Positions 35,472 to 42,235 of a DNA stretch of 64,000 nucleotides are shown in pieces. The position numbers were made by a program, and so were the translations under genes. This DNA is from Leucothrix mucor DSM 2157 (GTDB taxonomy: Bacteria > Pseudomonadota > Gammaproteobacteria > Thiotrichales > Thiotrichaceae), in the NCBI RefSeq assembly GCF_000419525.1, contig NZ_ATTE01000001.1:1550001-1614000 (forward strand), read 5' to 3'. Each line of letters starts with the position of its first letter. Positions within the stretch are counted from its first letter, which is position 1. Under the pieces are notes generated by a model. The model searched no databases, was not told where the DNA came from, and saw nothing but the letters and a program-made list of their open reading frames with translations.

Positions 35472-35819
35472 ATGAACCCTGTTCAGTTTTACAAATGTCT
35501 GGCAGATGAAACCAGATTACGCTGTTTGCTCCTTATCACCAACGAAGATGAACTTTGCGTTTGCGAGCTCACTGAAGCCTTACAAGAGAGCCAACCCAAG
35601 GTCTCACGCCATTTAGCCCAACTGCGCCAATGCGAACTGCTGGTCGATCGCAGACAAGGGCAGTGGGTATTTTATCGGCTCAATCCTAATCTACCGGAAT
35701 GGGCGCGTTCTGTATTAACCGAAACTACCGCACACAACACCGGTTTTCTCGACATCAATCGACAGCGCCTGAAGCAAATGGGCGATCGCCCTGAGCGTGT
35801 AAATAATTGCTGTAGTTAA
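35472..35819 (+). CDS. arsR: ArsR-type arsenic-responsive repressor
   Basis: A 115-residue winged-helix repressor of the ArsR/SmtB family. The N-terminal FYKCLADETRLRCL and the metalloid-binding helix motif ELCVCEL (two Cys about residues 30-32) match the classical ArsR arsenite site. A further Cys pair lies at the C-terminus (NNCCS). It would repress its own operon and be released by arsenite. The acr3 gene starts 25 bases downstream and a palindromic operator lies upstream, so the operon logic is complete. No arsenate reductase is in the window. Confidence 0.92.
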   Translation: MNPVQFYKCLADETRLRCLLLITNEDELCVCELTEALQESQPKVSRHLAQLRQCELLVDRRQGQWVFYRLNPNLPEWARSVLTETTAHNTGFLDINRQRLKQMGDRPERVNNCCS

Positions 35820-35844
35820 ATCGTTAAGATCAAGGAAGTGAGTT

Positions 35845-36876
35845 ATGGGTATTTTTGAGCGTTACTTATCCGTCTGGATTGGCCTCTGTATTTTGGCTGG
35901 CGTCGCGTTGGGTAATGTATTTCCGGGCTTTTTCCAAGTCATTGCAGGCTTTGAATGGGCGCATGTCAATTTCATCGTTGCCATCCTAATTTGGGTGATG
36001 ATTTATCCGATGATGGTGCAAATTGATTTCAGTGCCATTAAAGATATTGGTAAAAAGCCTAAGGGGCTAGTGCTAACGCTGGTGATCAATTGGCTAATCA
36101 AGCCATTCACCATGGCGGCCTTGGGTTGGTTGTTTTTTAAAGTGTTTTTTGTCTCATTGGTTGATCCTGAAACCGCCAATGAATACATCGCAGGCATGAT
36201 ATTACTGGGAGTCGCGCCGTGTACCGCGATGGTATTTGTCTGGAGCCAGCTAACCAAAGGCGATCCCAATTACACATTGGTACAAGTCTCGGTCAATGAC
36301 ATTATTATGATCTTTGCCTTTGCACCGATCACCGCATTTTTACTGGGCGTCAGCGATATTGCCGTGCCATGGGAAACGCTGATGTTATCGGTGGTTCTGT
36401 ATGTGGTATTGCCGCTGCTAGCAGGTGTGCTAACTCGTCGATATTTGCAGAAAAATCATGGCGAAGATCGGGTTACCGCCTTACTCGCCAAGACCAAGCC
36501 GTGGTCAATAGTAGGCTTGCTGGGAACGGTTGTTTTACTGTTCGGCTTTCAGGCTGAAACCATTATTAATCAACCATTGGCGATTGTGCTGATTGCCATT
36601 CCTTTGCTGATCCAAACCTATGGCATTTTTGCGATTGCGTATGCCTCGGCGAAGGCGATGAAGTTGCCACACAATATTGCTGCACCTGCTTGCATGATTG
36701 GTACCTCCAATTTTTTTGAGCTAGCGGTGGCCGTGGCGATTTCATTATTTGGATTACATTCCGGTGCGGCTTTGGCAACCGTCGTAGGTGTTTTGGTTGA
36801 GGTGCCGGTAATGTTGTCGCTGGTGTACTTTGCCAATCACACACGGCATTGGTTTAAAGAGGCTGATCAGCAGTGA
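35845..36876 (+). CDS. acr3: ACR3-type arsenite efflux pump
   Basis: A 343-residue membrane pump of the ACR3 (bile acid/arsenite) family that exports arsenite. About ten membrane segments are visible. The essential Cys lies in [17 protein letters not shown], the diagnostic stretch of ACR3 pumps, and the second helix signature [13 protein letters not shown] is also present. It is the second gene of the arsR operon. ArsB pumps are unrelated and do not share these motifs. Confidence 0.93.
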
Positions 36877-36930: not shown

Positions 36931-38181
36931 TTAATACTTCATATCTTTCGCATCGTAAACCAAGCCTATGCTTGCTGACTGCTTCTGAATGGCTTCAAAG
37001 ATTTGCACATCCAGCGAGTCTTTAGCCGTTCCGGAGGCGGCAACTTTCTCTTTCAGATAGCTATCTCGCTTCTCAGAAAGCTGACGGATTTCACTTTGTA
37101 AACGCTGACGTGTTTCAGCCTTTTCTTTAATAAATTCCTGCTGTGCTGCCGGTGCCATCACCTTCATTTCGGATGGCAATTCATCGCTTGAAATATCGGC
37201 TAATTCCGCCTTACCGCTGATTACTTCCTCCACCAACTCTTTCTCGCCTAGGAAGTTTCCTTTACCGCTAGAGGAGGTATTAAATGCCGCCCGACGCGCT
37301 TGAGATTCGGTGCTAGATTCTACATAAAGCTTGCTACTGGCCGCGACTTTAGCGGACTGTTTGCGCTTATCTTCCGCATTGCCGTAGTAGACTCGGGTGG
37401 TATCTAATTCAGCGGATAATCTGGCCAAGTCCGCATCAAATGGGGTCGCAATCGCCACCGCATTCCCAGATTGCGAGACCTGAAAGTAGTTACCTTGACC
37501 CAAATTCGCAATTTGCTGCCAGTTTTGCGTGGTTGCACGGTTATTGCCGCTTTGAATGGCGTTAATCACAATGCCTTTATCGCCTGCGATTTTAACGGTT
37601 TCAGGGTATTTAACATCATCCTGATAATCCATGTGTGCGGGTGCATCGCCGACTAAAAACACCACTTTGTATGTATTCTTATCCTGATTCCACGACATTT
37701 TATGTACGGCATCATACAGCGCTTGGTTCACACTTTCAGGACCATCTCCGCCGCCTCGTGCTTGAAAGTCCATCAGCTTGGCATACATCGAATCCAGGTC
37801 TTTCGAGAGGTCAATGGTTTGCGTAATATACGCATCGCCACGGTCGCGATAGGCTACCAACCCCATTTTGATTTCCGGAGCCGTTTGCGCTTGCGCCATG
37901 GTGCTGGCAATCGACCAGATTTTTTCTTTAGCGGCATTGATTAAGCCACTCATACTGCCGGTGGTATCCAGTACAAATACGACTTCAATTTTCGGTTTCT
38001 GTGACGCTTGCTGTGCAATGCTATCGGTGTCTGAAATGGCTGGCGAGGTCTGAGGAGTCGCTGGTGCGATGATTGGTCTAGGCATCGGAGGGACTTCTGC
38101 CACTGCGCTTTGCAAGCCAGGTAATAAGGTGGCACCAGCAGTTGCGGCGAATAGGCTAAGGGCGATTAATTTGATTTTCAT
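36931..38181 (-). CDS. Exported von Willebrand A domain protein
   Basis: A 416-residue protein with a signal peptide (about 1-28, ending near AVAE), a Pro-rich linker and a VWA domain (about 66-245). The metal-dependent site is complete: DTTGSMSG (DxTxS), RGGGDGPESV and VGDAPAHMD. The C-terminal part is a helical, Lys/Glu-rich region (about 300-400) likely to form a coiled coil. The gene is divergent from an OmpR-type regulator and kinase, with a 234-base shared upstream region, so it may be their target or their sensory partner. The ligand is unknown. Confidence 0.8.
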   Translation of the reverse strand: MKIKLIALSLFAATAGATLLPGLQSAVAEVPPMPRPIIAPATPQTSPAISDTDSIAQQASQKPKIEVVFVLDTTGSMSGLINAAKEKIWSIASTMAQAQTAPEIKMGLVAYRDRGDAYITQTIDLSKDLDSMYAKLMDFQARGGGDGPESVNQALYDAVHKMSWNQDKNTYKVVFLVGDAPAHMDYQDDVKYPETVKIAGDKGIVINAIQSGNNRATTQNWQQIANLGQGNYFQVSQSGNAVAIATPFDADLARLSAELDTTRVYYGNAEDKRKQSAKVAASSKLYVESSTESQARRAAFNTSSSGKGNFLGEKELVEEVISGKAELADISSDELPSEMKVMAPAAQQEFIKEKAETRQRLQSEIRQLSEKRDSYLKEKVAASGTAKDSLDVQIFEAIQKQSASIGLVYDAKDMKY

Positions 38182-38343
38182 AATGAATTCCTGGGAGCTG
38201 TTTGGTTACTGGTTACTGGTGTTGCCATGTGCTGCGCTCCTATCTTTGGAAGTTATTCGCAGCGCTGGTTGACTGTATGCACAGTTTACGAAGCGCAGGG
38301 AATTACAAACAGGCACAGTTTGGTAAAAGCTGCAGCAGGAATT

Positions 38344-38360
38344 TTTACAAAAAGTTTACA
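38344..38360 (+). promoter_or_regulatory. Direct repeat typical of OmpR-family binding
   Basis: TTTACA occurs at 38344-38349 and 38355-38360, exactly 11 bases apart, the spacing that OmpR/PhoB-type dimers recognise. A palindrome GCACA-GGG-TGTGC follows at 38363-38375. Both lie between the VWA gene and the response regulator gene. Confidence 0.6.
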
Positions 38361-38415
38361 GCGCACAGGGTGTGCCTTGTTACACTTGGAGTACTGATTA
38401 AAAAGGACCACACGC

Positions 38416-39120
38416 ATGTCAACTGATGCCAGCATTCTGATCGTAGAAGACGAGCTCGCCATTCGCATGGGACTGATTGATGTGTTTGTGTATCATGGCT
38501 ACCACGTTGATTTTGCAGACAATGGGCCGGATGGCTTAGCCAAAGGATTGAGTGGCGACTTCGATTTAATCTTGTTGGATGTGATGTTGCCGGGTATTGA
38601 TGGCTTTGAGATTTGCAATCGCATTCGGGAGAAAAGTCGCGACCAAGCCATTATTATGCTCACCGCCAAAAGCAATGATGAGGATATTATTCAGGGCTTA
38701 TCGTTGGGTGCGGATGACTATGTCTCTAAGCCGTTTTCAGTCGCGCAATTGGTATTACGGGTGCAGGCCGTGTTGCGTCGCACCGCCGCTTCCAGCGCGG
38801 TAAATGATGTGATTGAGCTATCACCAAGCTTACAAATTGACTGCCGGAATTTATCCGGCACCCGTGGCAAAGAAGTCTTGTCATTTACTTGCCGTGAGAT
38901 TGCACTGTTACAGTATTTACAAGCACATTCCGAACGACCTGTTTCACGCGATGAGCTACTGCATAAGGTGTGGGGCTACGCGGATGATTTATCGTTAGAG
39001 ACTCGCACGGTCGATATTCATGTCGCAAAACTGCGCCGAAAAATTGAGGCGGACTCTTCATCGCCTGAGTTTTTAGTCACTGTGCGTGGCGCTGGTTATC
39101 GTTTATTGAGCCAGTCATAA
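38416..39120 (+). CDS. OmpR-family response regulator
   Basis: A 234-residue regulator with an N-terminal receiver (phospho-acceptor in LILLDVMLPGIDG, conserved Thr in MLTAKSND and Lys in DDYVSKPF) and a C-terminal winged helix ending RTVDIHVAKLRRKIE and GAGYRLL. Its kinase follows three bases after the stop. Direct repeats in the upstream region suggest it controls its own operon and perhaps the divergent VWA gene. The regulated process is unknown. Confidence 0.93.
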   Translation: MSTDASILIVEDELAIRMGLIDVFVYHGYHVDFADNGPDGLAKGLSGDFDLILLDVMLPGIDGFEICNRIREKSRDQAIIMLTAKSNDEDIIQGLSLGADDYVSKPFSVAQLVLRVQAVLRRTAASSAVNDVIELSPSLQIDCRNLSGTRGKEVLSFTCREIALLQYLQAHSERPVSRDELLHKVWGYADDLSLETRTVDIHVAKLRRKIEADSSSPEFLVTVRGAGYRLLSQS

Positions 39121-39123
39121 GCT

Positions 39124-41550
39124 ATGCTTAAGCAGACTCTGAAAACACTGGATAAGAAAAAACTACGCCGTTGGCTATTGCTGTTTTTTGTGGCGCTATT
39201 AGTGCCAACGGTGGTGTTGATCCAGCAATCGTATAGTCGTTTAAAGTGGGAAGCTTTCCACCAACATCAGCAAATGGCGCAGGAGCTGTCAGTACGGATT
39301 GACAGCCGCTTTGCTGAGTTAATTCGTAAAGAAGACCAGCGACCATTTACCGATTACGCCTTTTTAAATGTGGCAGGGGATGTAAAGGCGGGCTTTTTGC
39401 AGCGTTCGCCATTATCTGAGTTTCCGGTTGCTGCGGAGTTACCGGGTTTGATGGGCTATTTTCAGGTCGATAATGCCGGTCAACTGGTAACGCCATTAGT
39501 GCCGGATGCCGATGCAAGCCAGTATGGGATTTCTGAGCTGGAGTTGGGGCAGCGGTTAGTACTACAAAATCAGATTCGGGATATTCTGGCGACCAATCAG
39601 TTACTGCAAAAGACAGTCTTGGCAGATATTGATGAGCCGGATAATGAATCCAGTGATTCTCTAAGTTCGCAAAGAATGGGCTCCGTAAGCTCACAAGGAG
39701 TGACTTCGGTGAGTGATTCAGCAGAGCCCTATGTGTCCGGAATGGCTGGGGTGTCGAAATTCTCTGGTGATTCATTGTCATCTCCTCAATCAATGCAACC
39801 CGAACTTTCCAGCCAATCGATACAAGCCGGTCAGTCAATGAGCATGATTGAAGCCGATAGCAGTATGGATAATGTGTCATCAGATAGTATTGAAGAAATG
39901 GCAGAGTTTGCAGACGTGGCCGAGCTTGAAGCAGAGGATGAGCGTGAATTGATGCAAGAGGGGGTTGATAAGAAAGAGCGCAGCCAAGCACCTGTTGCTG
40001 CACCTATATCAAAAAGCCTTGCAAGGCAGTCATCCAAAGCTGTCCAGTATTCCGCAGAGCCACAGATTGCTTTTGACCAATTAAAAAGCTTGTCTAAATT
40101 AGCGCCTCAAGCCAGCGAATTAGGGCGCTTAGAAGATCTAAATATCCAGCAAAACTATCAGCAGGCAGCACCTGTGCCACTTGCCGAAAGACTGGAAATA
40201 TTTCCCGTACAAAAACAAGCAACCTCCAAAGCTGATATCCAAGCCAGACAAGCAAAGTCGGCTCCGGCAAAGCGTGCACGAGTGGAGCAAAACAGCTTGC
40301 CCGAAGCTGCTACATTGCCATCGCTAGGTGCTATTGTCAGCGCAGACTCAGCGTCCAGCACACAAGCCGCTCCTCAAAGCACTCGCATTCTCACTTTTGA
40401 GAGCGAAATCGATACATTTGAGTTTAGCCAGCTAGCTAGCGGCCATTTTGTGTTATATCGCAAAGTCTGGTTAAACGGACAGAAATATGTGCAGGGCTTA
40501 TTAATCGAGCCTGAGGCGTTTTTAAGCTCAGTCATTAACACCGAGTTCCGTGCTACCGCACTTTCACAAATGAGTGATTTGCTGGTGGCTTATCAAGGTA
40601 ATGTGCTAACGGCATTTTCAGGTCGGTCCTTACGGGGGTACTTATCCAGTAGCGCGGAGTTAACCGGTGAGCAGCTATATAAAACAAGACTGTCAGCGCC
40701 ATTAAGCGATATGCAGCTACTGTATAGCGTGACGCAATTACCCGCAGGGCCGGGCGGACAAGTGATTCTGTGGTTAGCGGCTATCTTAGGCATTGTGCTA
40801 TGCGGCGGTTTTTATCTGCTGTATCGCTTGGGATTAGGACAGATCAATCTCGCTAACCAGCAGCAGGACTTTGTCTCAGCCGTCAGCCATGAGCTAAAAA
40901 CACCGCTCACTTCCATCCGCATGTATGGCGAACTGTTGCGCGAAGGCTGGGCTAGCGAAGAGAAAAAACGGACGTATTACGACTTTATTTTTGATGAAAG
41001 TGAGCGATTATCCCGACTGATTAACAATGTACTACAGCTGGCACGCATGACTCGCAATGAGCAACAAGCCGAGCTGCAGTTAATGGATGTGGGTCAACTG
41101 CTGCGCACCATCGAATCCAAAATCAACTCACAGGTCGAGCGCTCTGGCTTTGAACTGGAAGTACATTGCGTCGATGCAGTGAAAGACGCCAGCATTATGG
41201 TGGACGCTGATTGGCTAACGCAGATTATGATTAATCTGGTGGATAATGCGATTAAGTTCTCCGCCAAAGCCCCAGTCAAGAAAGTCGCAATCAGCGCTCA
41301 GCAAGGCAGTGACCATAGCGTGCAATTTACGGTACGCGATTACGGCCCCGGTATTGAAAAAGCACAGATGAAAAAAATCTTCCAGCTCTTTTACCGCTCA
41401 GAGAGTGAGCTAACGCGCGAAACGGTTGGCACAGGTATTGGTTTATCGCTGGTACAACAGATGGTTAGCAATATGGGGGGCAAGATCAGCGTGGCTAATT
41501 GTGAGCCTGGTGCTGAGTTCCGGCTGACGTTTGCAGAGCGTGGCAATTAA
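39124..41550 (+). CDS. Sensor histidine kinase with long Ser-rich periplasmic insert
   Basis: Inner-membrane kinase of 808 residues, partner of the preceding regulator. TM1 is about 17-35 and TM2 about 548-572. The kinase core has HELKTPLTSIRM (His about 588), the N-box NLVDNAIKFS and G-boxes DYGPGIE and GTGIGLSLVQQM. The periplasmic part is about 510 residues, far longer than usual. It begins with a conserved-looking sensor segment (about 60-120, DYAFLNVAGDVKAG). Residues 172-419 are low complexity, rich in Ser, Gln, Ala, Glu and Met (for example DSLSSQ, SSQSIQAGQSMSMIEADSS). A second ordered segment (about 420-545) precedes TM2. The insert looks disordered. Confidence 0.88.
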   Translation: MLKQTLKTLDKKKLRRWLLLFFVALLVPTVVLIQQSYSRLKWEAFHQHQQMAQELSVRIDSRFAELIRKEDQRPFTDYAFLNVAGDVKAGFLQRSPLSEFPVAAELPGLMGYFQVDNAGQLVTPLVPDADASQYGISELELGQRLVLQNQIRDILATNQLLQKTVLADIDEPDNESSDSLSSQRMGSVSSQGVTSVSDSAEPYVSGMAGVSKFSGDSLSSPQSMQPELSSQSIQAGQSMSMIEADSSMDNVSSDSIEEMAEFADVAELEAEDERELMQEGVDKKERSQAPVAAPISKSLARQSSKAVQYSAEPQIAFDQLKSLSKLAPQASELGRLEDLNIQQNYQQAAPVPLAERLEIFPVQKQATSKADIQARQAKSAPAKRARVEQNSLPEAATLPSLGAIVSADSASSTQAAPQSTRILTFESEIDTFEFSQLASGHFVLYRKVWLNGQKYVQGLLIEPEAFLSSVINTEFRATALSQMSDLLVAYQGNVLTAFSGRSLRGYLSSSAELTGEQLYKTRLSAPLSDMQLLYSVTQLPAGPGGQVILWLAAILGIVLCGGFYLLYRLGLGQINLANQQQDFVSAVSHELKTPLTSIRMYGELLREGWASEEKKRTYYDFIFDESERLSRLINNVLQLARMTRNEQQAELQLMDVGQLLRTIESKINSQVERSGFELEVHCVDAVKDASIMVDADWLTQIMINLVDNAIKFSAKAPVKKVAISAQQGSDHSVQFTVRDYGPGIEKAQMKKIFQLFYRSESELTRETVGTGIGLSLVQQMVSNMGGKISVANCEPGAEFRLTFAERGN

Positions 41551-41593
41551 GCTTATATTCGCGAATTGAAAACTTCCGATGGTTGGAGTGACT

Positions 41594-42235
41594 ATGCTTT
41601 CGTATGATGTAACTTTAAATGCTTTTGTGACGCTATTTGTCACCGTTGACCCCATTGGTAATGCGCCTCTGTTTTTGGGCCTGACCATTGGTATGTCCTC
41701 GATGGATCGACGCATGGTCGCTATTCGTGGCTGTGTTGTGGCGTTGCTGATTCTGACCTTATTTGCGGTTACCGGTACCGCAATTCTGGATGCAATGGGA
41801 ATTACCATTGATGCTTTCCGTGTGGCGGGTGGTTTATTGCTGTTTTATACCGCGTTTGAAATGATCTATGAAAAGCGTCAGGAACGTAAGGAAGAAGTCT
41901 CTAAGTCGGCGGTTAAAGAGCACATTGCCAGTATTTCAGTCTTCCCATTAGCCATTCCACTACTGGCAGGGCCGGGGACTATTTCAGCGACTATTCTATT
42001 GTCTTCGGAGATGTCAGCCGCATCAACTGAACATCATTGGATGGGCATTGTGACTTTGCTGGCGGTTATTTTCGTGCTGCTATTGTTGACCGCGATAACG
42101 CTAATGGCCGCTGAGCTTCTTGATAAATACATTGGTAATACCGGCAAGATGATTCTAACTCGTTTGCTGGGTGTATTGCTGGCCGCCTTATCCGTGCAGT
42201 ATGTTGCAGATGGTGCTCAAGCCTTATTTAGTTAA
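41594..42235 (+). CDS. MarC family membrane protein
   Basis: A 213-residue integral membrane protein of the MarC/UPF0056 family with six predicted membrane helices. I start at ATG 41594, which has GGAG five bases upstream, instead of ATG 41579. Family segments are NAFVTLFVTVDPIGNAPLFLGLT, the RVAGGLLLFYTAFEM turn and SVFPLAIPLLAGPGTIS. MarC was once thought to give multidrug resistance, which was later withdrawn; no function is established. It follows the kinase gene by 44 bases but may have its own transcription. A long hairpin follows. Confidence 0.88.
   Translation: MLSYDVTLNAFVTLFVTVDPIGNAPLFLGLTIGMSSMDRRMVAIRGCVVALLILTLFAVTGTAILDAMGITIDAFRVAGGLLLFYTAFEMIYEKRQERKEEVSKSAVKEHIASISVFPLAIPLLAGPGTISATILLSSEMSAASTEHHWMGIVTLLAVIFVLLLLTAITLMAAELLDKYIGNTGKMILTRLLGVLLAALSVQYVADGAQALFS

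Follow-up and report, generated by a model that had tools for sequence, protein, structure and literature searches.

In LuxPQ, a separate periplasmic protein works together with a Cache-type kinase. In the LiaRS/liaIH and phage shock protein (PSP) systems, according to the literature on them, a two-component system adjoins an operon that codes for a member of the PspA/LiaH family along with a small membrane protein, an arrangement shared by the gene cluster described below. The sources drawn on for the known systems are PMC11237479, PMC9239133, PMC10948618, PMC5063474, PMC4822843 and PMC9901441. They give GTAAA-(N)4-8-GTAAA as the CpxR consensus (PMC5063474) and describe the alpha2delta-1 calcium-channel subunit as a protein in which a dCache_1 domain is split by a VWA domain (PMC9901441). 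The locus compared with these systems lies in a 64,000-nucleotide stretch of the genome of Leucothrix mucor DSM 2157 (5.19 Mb; contig NZ_ATTE01000001.1, positions 1,550,001 to 1,614,000), which is referred to as the window, and comprises the genes for a von Willebrand factor A (VWA) protein, a response regulator and a histidine kinase:

36931..38181, minus strand: divergent gene for an exported or anchored VWA protein, 416 amino acids, Pfam VWA_4 (open reading frame, Pfam, predicted structure, alignment)
38416..39120, plus strand: OmpR/PhoB-family response regulator, 234 amino acids (open reading frame; Pfam Response_reg and Trans_reg_C)
39124..41550, plus strand: sensor histidine kinase, 808 amino acids, with HisKA at residues 580-643 and HATPase_c at 694-804 (open reading frame, Pfam)

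A preliminary description of this DNA had reported an 808-residue kinase with a Ser-rich periplasmic insert and a divergent gene for an exported VWA protein, which was thought either to bind the insert or to be the regulated output of the kinase. The kinase reading frame was confirmed together with those of the regulator and the VWA protein; the immediate divergent neighbour of the VWA gene is the regulator gene and not the kinase gene. None of the three proteins reached an NCBIfam cut-off among the matches listed. The same locus is present in Leucothrix arctica (VWA proteins 71% identical). On balance, the locus probably encodes a two-component system that responds to envelope stress and is of the LiaRS/PSP kind, with the VWA protein as the regulator-controlled output. 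Less certainly, the VWA protein may also be a periplasmic partner of the sensor. Such a form of the cluster is unnamed in the family libraries scanned.

Gene linkage, the five-gene cluster and its intergenic repeat

Some relative of the VWA protein is encoded in 540 contig stretches, the best 80 of which were kept and examined. The kinase gene was found in 71 and the regulator gene in 73 of these 80 loci, divergent from the VWA gene in each case. In eight of the nine loci without a kinase, the first gene of the cluster is located at most 0.41 kb from the contig end; this does not apply to the ninth (L073), whose two-component pair may sit elsewhere in the genome. Because these loci had been selected by VWA similarity, an independent class-wide search was performed with separate profiles (sensor E ≤ 1e-6, VWA E ≤ 1e-50) in 276 evenly drawn gammaproteobacterial genomes. 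The sensor was found in 16 genomes, the VWA family in 16 and both in 15, all 15 within 3.3 kb (Fisher p 1e-22, with relatedness ignored and the window genome counted), so that kinases without a linked VWA gene, which the preliminary description had named as speaking against its idea, are not the norm. One exception, G178, encodes a distant VWA protein only. The other, G068 (locus L118), has the kinase, a PspA-like gene and fragments of the membrane-protein gene, with no VWA match in 16 kb; this locus looks broken, as the regulator and membrane-protein matches are found in short or fused frames. Among 57 relatives, a VWA match was obtained in eight genomes, of which G010 matched weakly (33% identity), and the kinase was found in six. 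G004 (assembly 69% complete) carries the VWA gene at a contig end and gave no kinase match, and G002 of the same genus (97% complete) has neither gene. In a phylum sample, matches were obtained in two of 397 genomes (out-of-class share unstated), the window genome and G114, both from within the class. Hosts of the cluster include Methylophaga, Methylococcales, Sedimenticola, Thiodiazotropha symbionts and Hahella.

In its usual form the cluster consists of five genes, kinase and regulator on one side and, divergently, a PspA-like protein, a membrane protein and the VWA protein on the other. The two extra gene products, encoded between regulator and VWA in the direction of the latter, form clusters with members in 74 and in 75 of the 80 loci, and with cluster-built profiles both genes were detected in 14 of the 15 class-sample genomes that show the linkage. 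The PspA/IM30-family protein has a median length of 178 amino acids. Two such proteins of relatives were scanned and matched PF04012 with 62 bits (cut-off 33.9), while the PspA-like protein of one relative stayed below the cut-offs of the curated equivalogs LiaH (40.9 of 380 bits) and PspA (34.5 of 242.95 bits). The membrane protein is approximately 189 amino acids long, with four to five predicted segments in 78 of 86 cases; the one scanned had no Pfam match. The PspA-membrane protein-VWA arm was also seen on a contig labelled as a Halobacteria archaeon (L038), probably a mis-binned bacterial contig.

A reduced form, consisting of the VWA gene and the two-component pair, is found in Leucothrix and on one Thiotrichaceae contig (L043). 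All loci without the PspA-like and membrane-protein genes (window, G003, L032, L033, L034 and L043) have retained the VWA gene and the intergenic repeat described below (11 or 12 of 12 positions). The membrane protein has no match anywhere in the window genome, G003 or G006, and each of these genomes has one PspA-family match away from the locus. In the window genome this only match (C1:11847-12494, L114) contains two internal TAA codons and is possibly a decayed PspA gene; the counterpart in G003 is open and encodes 223 amino acids. Since the five-gene form is the more widespread one, we infer that the Leucothrix lineage lost the middle two genes and does not represent the ancestral state.

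The region between the divergent arms contains a conserved element:

38323..38360, minus strand: conserved cis element toward the VWA gene, TGTAAA-N5-TGTAAA (38344-38360) with downstream TTTTAC; CpxR-type box, putative regulator site (motif search)

Intergenic regions between the regulator and the VWA arm were compared in 86 cases, up to four of which stem from contigs fetched twice. A direct repeat (TTTAC/GTAAA, spacing 6) is present in 78 of them, compared with at most 2 in shuffles. The best site agrees with TGTAAA-N5-TGTAAA at every one of the 12 positions in 65 regions, at 11 in 20 and at 10 in one, and is followed by a conserved TTTTAC; the window repeat agrees at all 12 positions. With a spacing of 15 and up to two mismatches, the full element has a single match in the window genome and a single one in G003, each at the locus and with no control match, and two in G006 (one at the locus, one control match). 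With a spacing of 14, G049 has a match at its own locus, and G003 and G006 have one each off the locus (control none). The exact bare repeat occurs four times in the window genome versus three times for the reversed control, and no large regulon of exact sites is apparent from these counts. Judging from its position between the divergent arms, the repeat would be bound by the regulator of the cluster itself, and this placement supports the earlier proposal of the VWA protein as a regulated output. With the NCBIfam CpxR model the window regulator scores 128.4 bits (cut-off 341), rank 12 of 45 in the genome, by which orthology to CpxRA was rejected. A regulator closer to CpxR is encoded at C1:2757569 (229 bits, likewise below 341).

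The split periplasmic sensor of the kinase

The periplasmic region of the kinase is bracketed by hydrophobic segments at residues 18-36 and 547-565 and is composed of the following parts:

39229..39597, plus strand: N-terminal half of the periplasmic sensor, residues 36-158 (alignment, AlphaFold, structural search)
39637..40053, plus strand: Ser-rich disordered tether, residues 172-310, a lineage-specific expansion (composition, pLDDT)
40063..40083, plus strand: linker motif 1, QxxFDxL, residues 314-320 (alignment, motif counts)
40126..40158, plus strand: linker motif 2, (G)R(V/L)EDLxLxxxY, residues 335-345 (alignment, motif counts)
40279..40302, plus strand: linker motif 3, RxExxxLP, residues 386-393, predicted beta strand (alignment, motif counts, AlphaFold)
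40375..40821, plus strand: C-terminal sensor half and second transmembrane segment, residues 418-566 (alignment, AlphaFold)

A Pfam scan of the kinase (E ≤ 0.001) returned HisKA and two HATPase models only, with no Cache model and nothing in the periplasmic region, and a sequence search for solved relatives of the sensor gave none that is credible (best E 0.06). An AlphaFold model of residues 1-575, built on an alignment of 63 sequences, has a mean predicted local distance difference test (pLDDT) score of 76, with high values in both sensor halves. A double PAS-like fold, a long N-terminal helix and a position between two transmembrane segments characterise dCache sensors. In the VIA-align list for this model, dCache-type sensors are found near the top (7k5n, Z 9.8; KinD 4jgr, 9.7; CqsR 9nia, 9.3), the top row (Z 10.3) being an integrative model of MCPB-MCPC. 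The dCache-type alignments, with moderate Z of 9-10, span both halves from residue 37 or so to 541-545. The sensor is therefore likely dCache-like as far as the predicted fold indicates. The insert would then split a dCache domain, in agreement with the earlier view that it interrupts a single sensor region.

Two conserved sensor halves joined by a linker of variable length were found in five aligned kinases (the window kinase, three of the same genus and that of G049 from another family). The linker comprises 98-193 amino acids in 66 relatives versus 259 (residues 159-417) in the window kinase. Residues 172-310 are rich in Ser (24.5%), followed by Glu (10.1%), Ala (9.4%), Gln (7.9%), Asp (7.2%) and Met (5.8%). 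The low-complexity insert had been placed at residues 172-419. This description applies to approximately residues 172-310, where the pLDDT is mostly below 50 (179-309), but not beyond, where conserved islands are found at 314-320, 335-345 and 386-393. The Ser-rich part before motif 1 has 158 amino acids in the window kinase versus 15-95 in 65 others; one relative has no recognisable motif. Judged from these alignments, the low-complexity segment that stands out in the window kinase is an elongated tether, and the conserved part of the insert comes after it.

Of the 67 linkers compared, 62 contain motif 1 (0.06 on average in shuffled sequences). Motif 2 was found in 64 in its relaxed form xDLxL (shuffled 6.4) and in 56 in the strict form DLxL. 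For motif 3, the relaxed form RxE..LP, searched as R.{1,3}E.{2,3}LP, matched 59 (shuffled 2.4) and a stricter form four. Among the 63 aligned sequences, the conserved residues are Q314 (59), F317 (62), D318 (61) and L320 (63) in motif 1, D338 (58) and Leu at position 341 (61; Ile in the window kinase) in motif 2, and R386 (61), E388 (61), L392 (59) and P393 (58) in motif 3. The model has pLDDT values of 85-89 at residues 311-340 and 71-84 at 371-400, including a strand at 386-393.

The VWA protein and its relation to the kinase

For the VWA protein, a VWA domain (residues 64-245, approximately) and a helical C-terminal domain (approximately 249-403) are predicted with a mean pLDDT of 82. The match to VWA_4 (PF25106) reaches 55.3 bits (Pfam cut-off 27). 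Foldseek matches of the model include integrin I domains and RPN10 complexes (best E 1.6e-7), and the sequence profile found no solved structure at E 0.01. A motif of the metal site is encoded as follows:

37954..37968, minus strand: VWA metal-site motif D72-T-T-G-S76, invariant except G75 in 73 proteins (alignment)

In the alignment of these 73 proteins, D72, T73, T74, S76 and D179 are invariant and D146 is found in 72. Loop 2 reads GGGD-x-PE and contains no Thr, whereas integrin I domains have a Thr in the corresponding metal-site loop. The metal site claimed previously is there but differs from the textbook set, the classical MIDAS being made up of a DxSxS-type motif, a Thr and an Asp. Export, also claimed, is supported by the hydrophobic N-terminus in 73 of 73 proteins. 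Since T14 (Thr in 71) and P21 (Pro in 70) are conserved in or beside this hydrophobic segment, the N-terminus may be an uncleaved membrane anchor. Four clusters (L120, L121, L122 and L124) carry a different VWA subtype, with 191-214 bits compared to 579-699 bits for the other complete linked VWA proteins listed. In this subtype DTTGSM, GGGDxPE and GDAP are replaced by DTSSSM or DTSGSM, GG(D/E)EYC, and GNEPF or GNESF. A similar divergent-subtype VWA protein is encoded at L127, with no kinase match nearby.

According to the mechanism proposed here, the kinase would sense the periplasm with its dCache-like sensor split by the long insert, as family knowledge suggests, and upon stress would phosphorylate the regulator, a step established for the family. 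The regulator would bind TGTAAA-N5-TGTAAA in the divergent intergenic region and activate the facing operon, which by gene order encodes the PspA/LiaH-like protein, the membrane protein and the VWA protein in most relatives and the VWA protein alone in Leucothrix. The presence of PspA points to envelope or membrane stress as the putative signal. The exported and probably membrane-tethered VWA protein would feed back on or assist the kinase by contacting the split dCache sensor, a contact that might be analogous in principle to that of LuxP and LuxQ; this is the least certain step. Two observations suggest an action on the kinase: the VWA protein is still encoded with the two-component pair at loci from which the other output genes are absent, and a different VWA subtype can replace it in the cluster.

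Several observations weigh against this proposal. Foldseek returned no match of the sensor model at E ≤ 0.001; the best was 2hj9_D (E 0.015), from an entry entitled as LuxP with the LuxQ periplasmic domain. The window locus itself has neither the PspA-like nor the membrane-protein gene, and the stress signal was deduced from PspA alone. In the chromosomal locus L073, the PspA-membrane protein-VWA arm has flanks of 10 kb, in which neither the kinase nor the regulator was matched. The linker motifs remain recognisable in the kinases beside the very different VWA subtype (L120, L121, L122, L124), and they are predicted to be ordered within the kinase alone. The full element with spacing 14 and up to two mismatches has two matches in the window genome, none at the locus (control two), and the fit of the repeat to the CpxR box leaves room for binding of another regulator. 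A mirror-tree analysis covered 68 of the 69 complete five-gene loci (L096 was dropped as truncated; left out beforehand were L120, L121, L122 and L124 of the second subtype, the duplicates L129-L132, L022, L024, L026, L028 and loci missing any gene). It gave partial correlations of 0.30 for sensor-VWA, 0.45 for VWA-regulator, 0.41 for sensor-membrane protein, 0.37 for PspA-membrane protein and 0.00 for sensor-PspA. As the VWA-regulator value is the highest, although the compartments of both proteins should differ, the analysis is non-discriminating and was not used as evidence.

Binding of the VWA protein to the Ser-rich insert, as first proposed, is not supported: the Ser-rich part is not conserved (158 versus 15-95 residues), the conserved columns come after it, and the motifs are retained alongside either VWA subtype and already come out as ordered when the kinase is modelled by itself. 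The last two points would be expected if the insert were internal to the kinase, with the motifs latching onto the dCache halves, the Ser-rich part serving as a mere tether and any docking of the VWA protein taking place at another site of the sensor or on the membrane protein. This is quite possible and compatible with the feedback proposed above; the ordered regions on which it draws (311-340, strand 386-393) may, on the other hand, reflect the shallow alignment of 63 related sequences. Less likely is a role of the VWA protein as a regulated output and nothing more, in which it would work with PspA and the membrane protein as a scaffold for envelope repair or adhesion and would make no contact with the kinase. 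The VWA gene is the last of three genes downstream of the conserved repeat in most loci, and related VWA proteins occur without kinase or regulator matches in stretches of 10.6-15 kb (L119, L123, L127). Nevertheless, Leucothrix and L043 keep VWA and kinase although the proposed co-effectors are gone from the locus, and a very different VWA subtype occupies the corresponding position next to the same kinase.

An equivalent of alpha2delta made up of two bacterial proteins, with the VWA domain supplied in trans, appears rather unlikely. In such a system the metal-dependent VWA protein would dock on the kinase's opened dCache domain, for which the linker motifs would be the latch, its regulator-controlled supply would set the kinase threshold, and the PspA-membrane protein arm would be optional. 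That the kinase is an orphan with a low-complexity insert beside the VWA gene by chance is hardly credible: low-complexity inserts are common in sensor domains, but the linkage in 15 of 16 sensor genomes (276 sampled) and 71 of 80 loci contradicts it, as does the occurrence of motif 1, counted in 62 of the 67 linkers (0.06 on average for shuffled ones). Binding of the repeat by another, CpxR-like regulator, which would make the cluster part of a wider envelope-stress regulon and not autoregulated, is improbable. The repeat fits the CpxR consensus (PMC5063474), and the genome encodes the protein closer to CpxR (C1:2757569, 229 versus 128.4 bits). Neither protein reaches 341 bits, however, the exact repeat is hardly more frequent in the genome than its control (4 versus 3), and in 78 of 86 intergenic regions the direct repeat is found where the two arms of the cluster diverge.

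Two neighbours of the locus are absent among the recurrent neighbours of the cluster: an ACR3 arsenite transporter gene with an open reading frame for a regulator, presumably of the ArsR type, just upstream (window positions 35472-36876), and a gene for a MarC/NAAT-family membrane protein directly 3' of the kinase gene (41579-42235).

Comparison with known systems

In contrast to LiaRS/liaIH and the PSP systems, the PspA-like protein of the cluster is short (median 178 amino acids), far below the LiaH and PspA cut-offs and missing from the window locus, the kinase has HisKA and a large periplasmic sensor, and a VWA protein is added. The words 'Willebrand' and 'VWA' are absent from the main texts of two PSP surveys (PMC11237479, PMC9239133), the supplements of which could list the cluster, and no description of it was recognised among titles and abstract openings of the literature on PspA or VWA with kinase or stress. 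With CpxRA the cluster shares the promoter direct repeat, which has the CpxR-box form GTAAA-(N)4-8-GTAAA, but the regulator differs (128.4 versus 341 bits). As an induced periplasmic partner, the VWA protein would parallel CpxP. TIGR03788, a marine proteobacterial sortase target, likewise comprises VWA proteins of marine proteobacteria, which are associated with a kinase/regulator pair; the VWA protein scores 20.9 bits against a cut-off of 551.65, and a dedicated sortase system was rejected. LuxQ is among the structural matches of the sensor (2hje, Z 7.7). The partner here is a VWA protein and not LuxP, and the LuxQ sensor is not known to have such an insert.

The cluster appears to be a well-conserved envelope-stress module of several gammaproteobacterial groups without a name in the scanned libraries. 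With it come a specific box for the regulator, a likely fold of the sensor and a VWA protein as dedicated partner. No significant structural match to alpha2delta was obtained with Foldseek, where 6jp5_F, which we take to be an alpha2delta chain, appeared only at E 0.32. VWA and dCache domains occur together in both cases, which is a lead and not a test: alpha2delta is one protein, while here two proteins are concerned and a linker with conserved motifs divides the dCache-like sensor. Should the VWA protein act on this sensor, the VWA-dCache pairing of the calcium channel would operate between two bacterial proteins.

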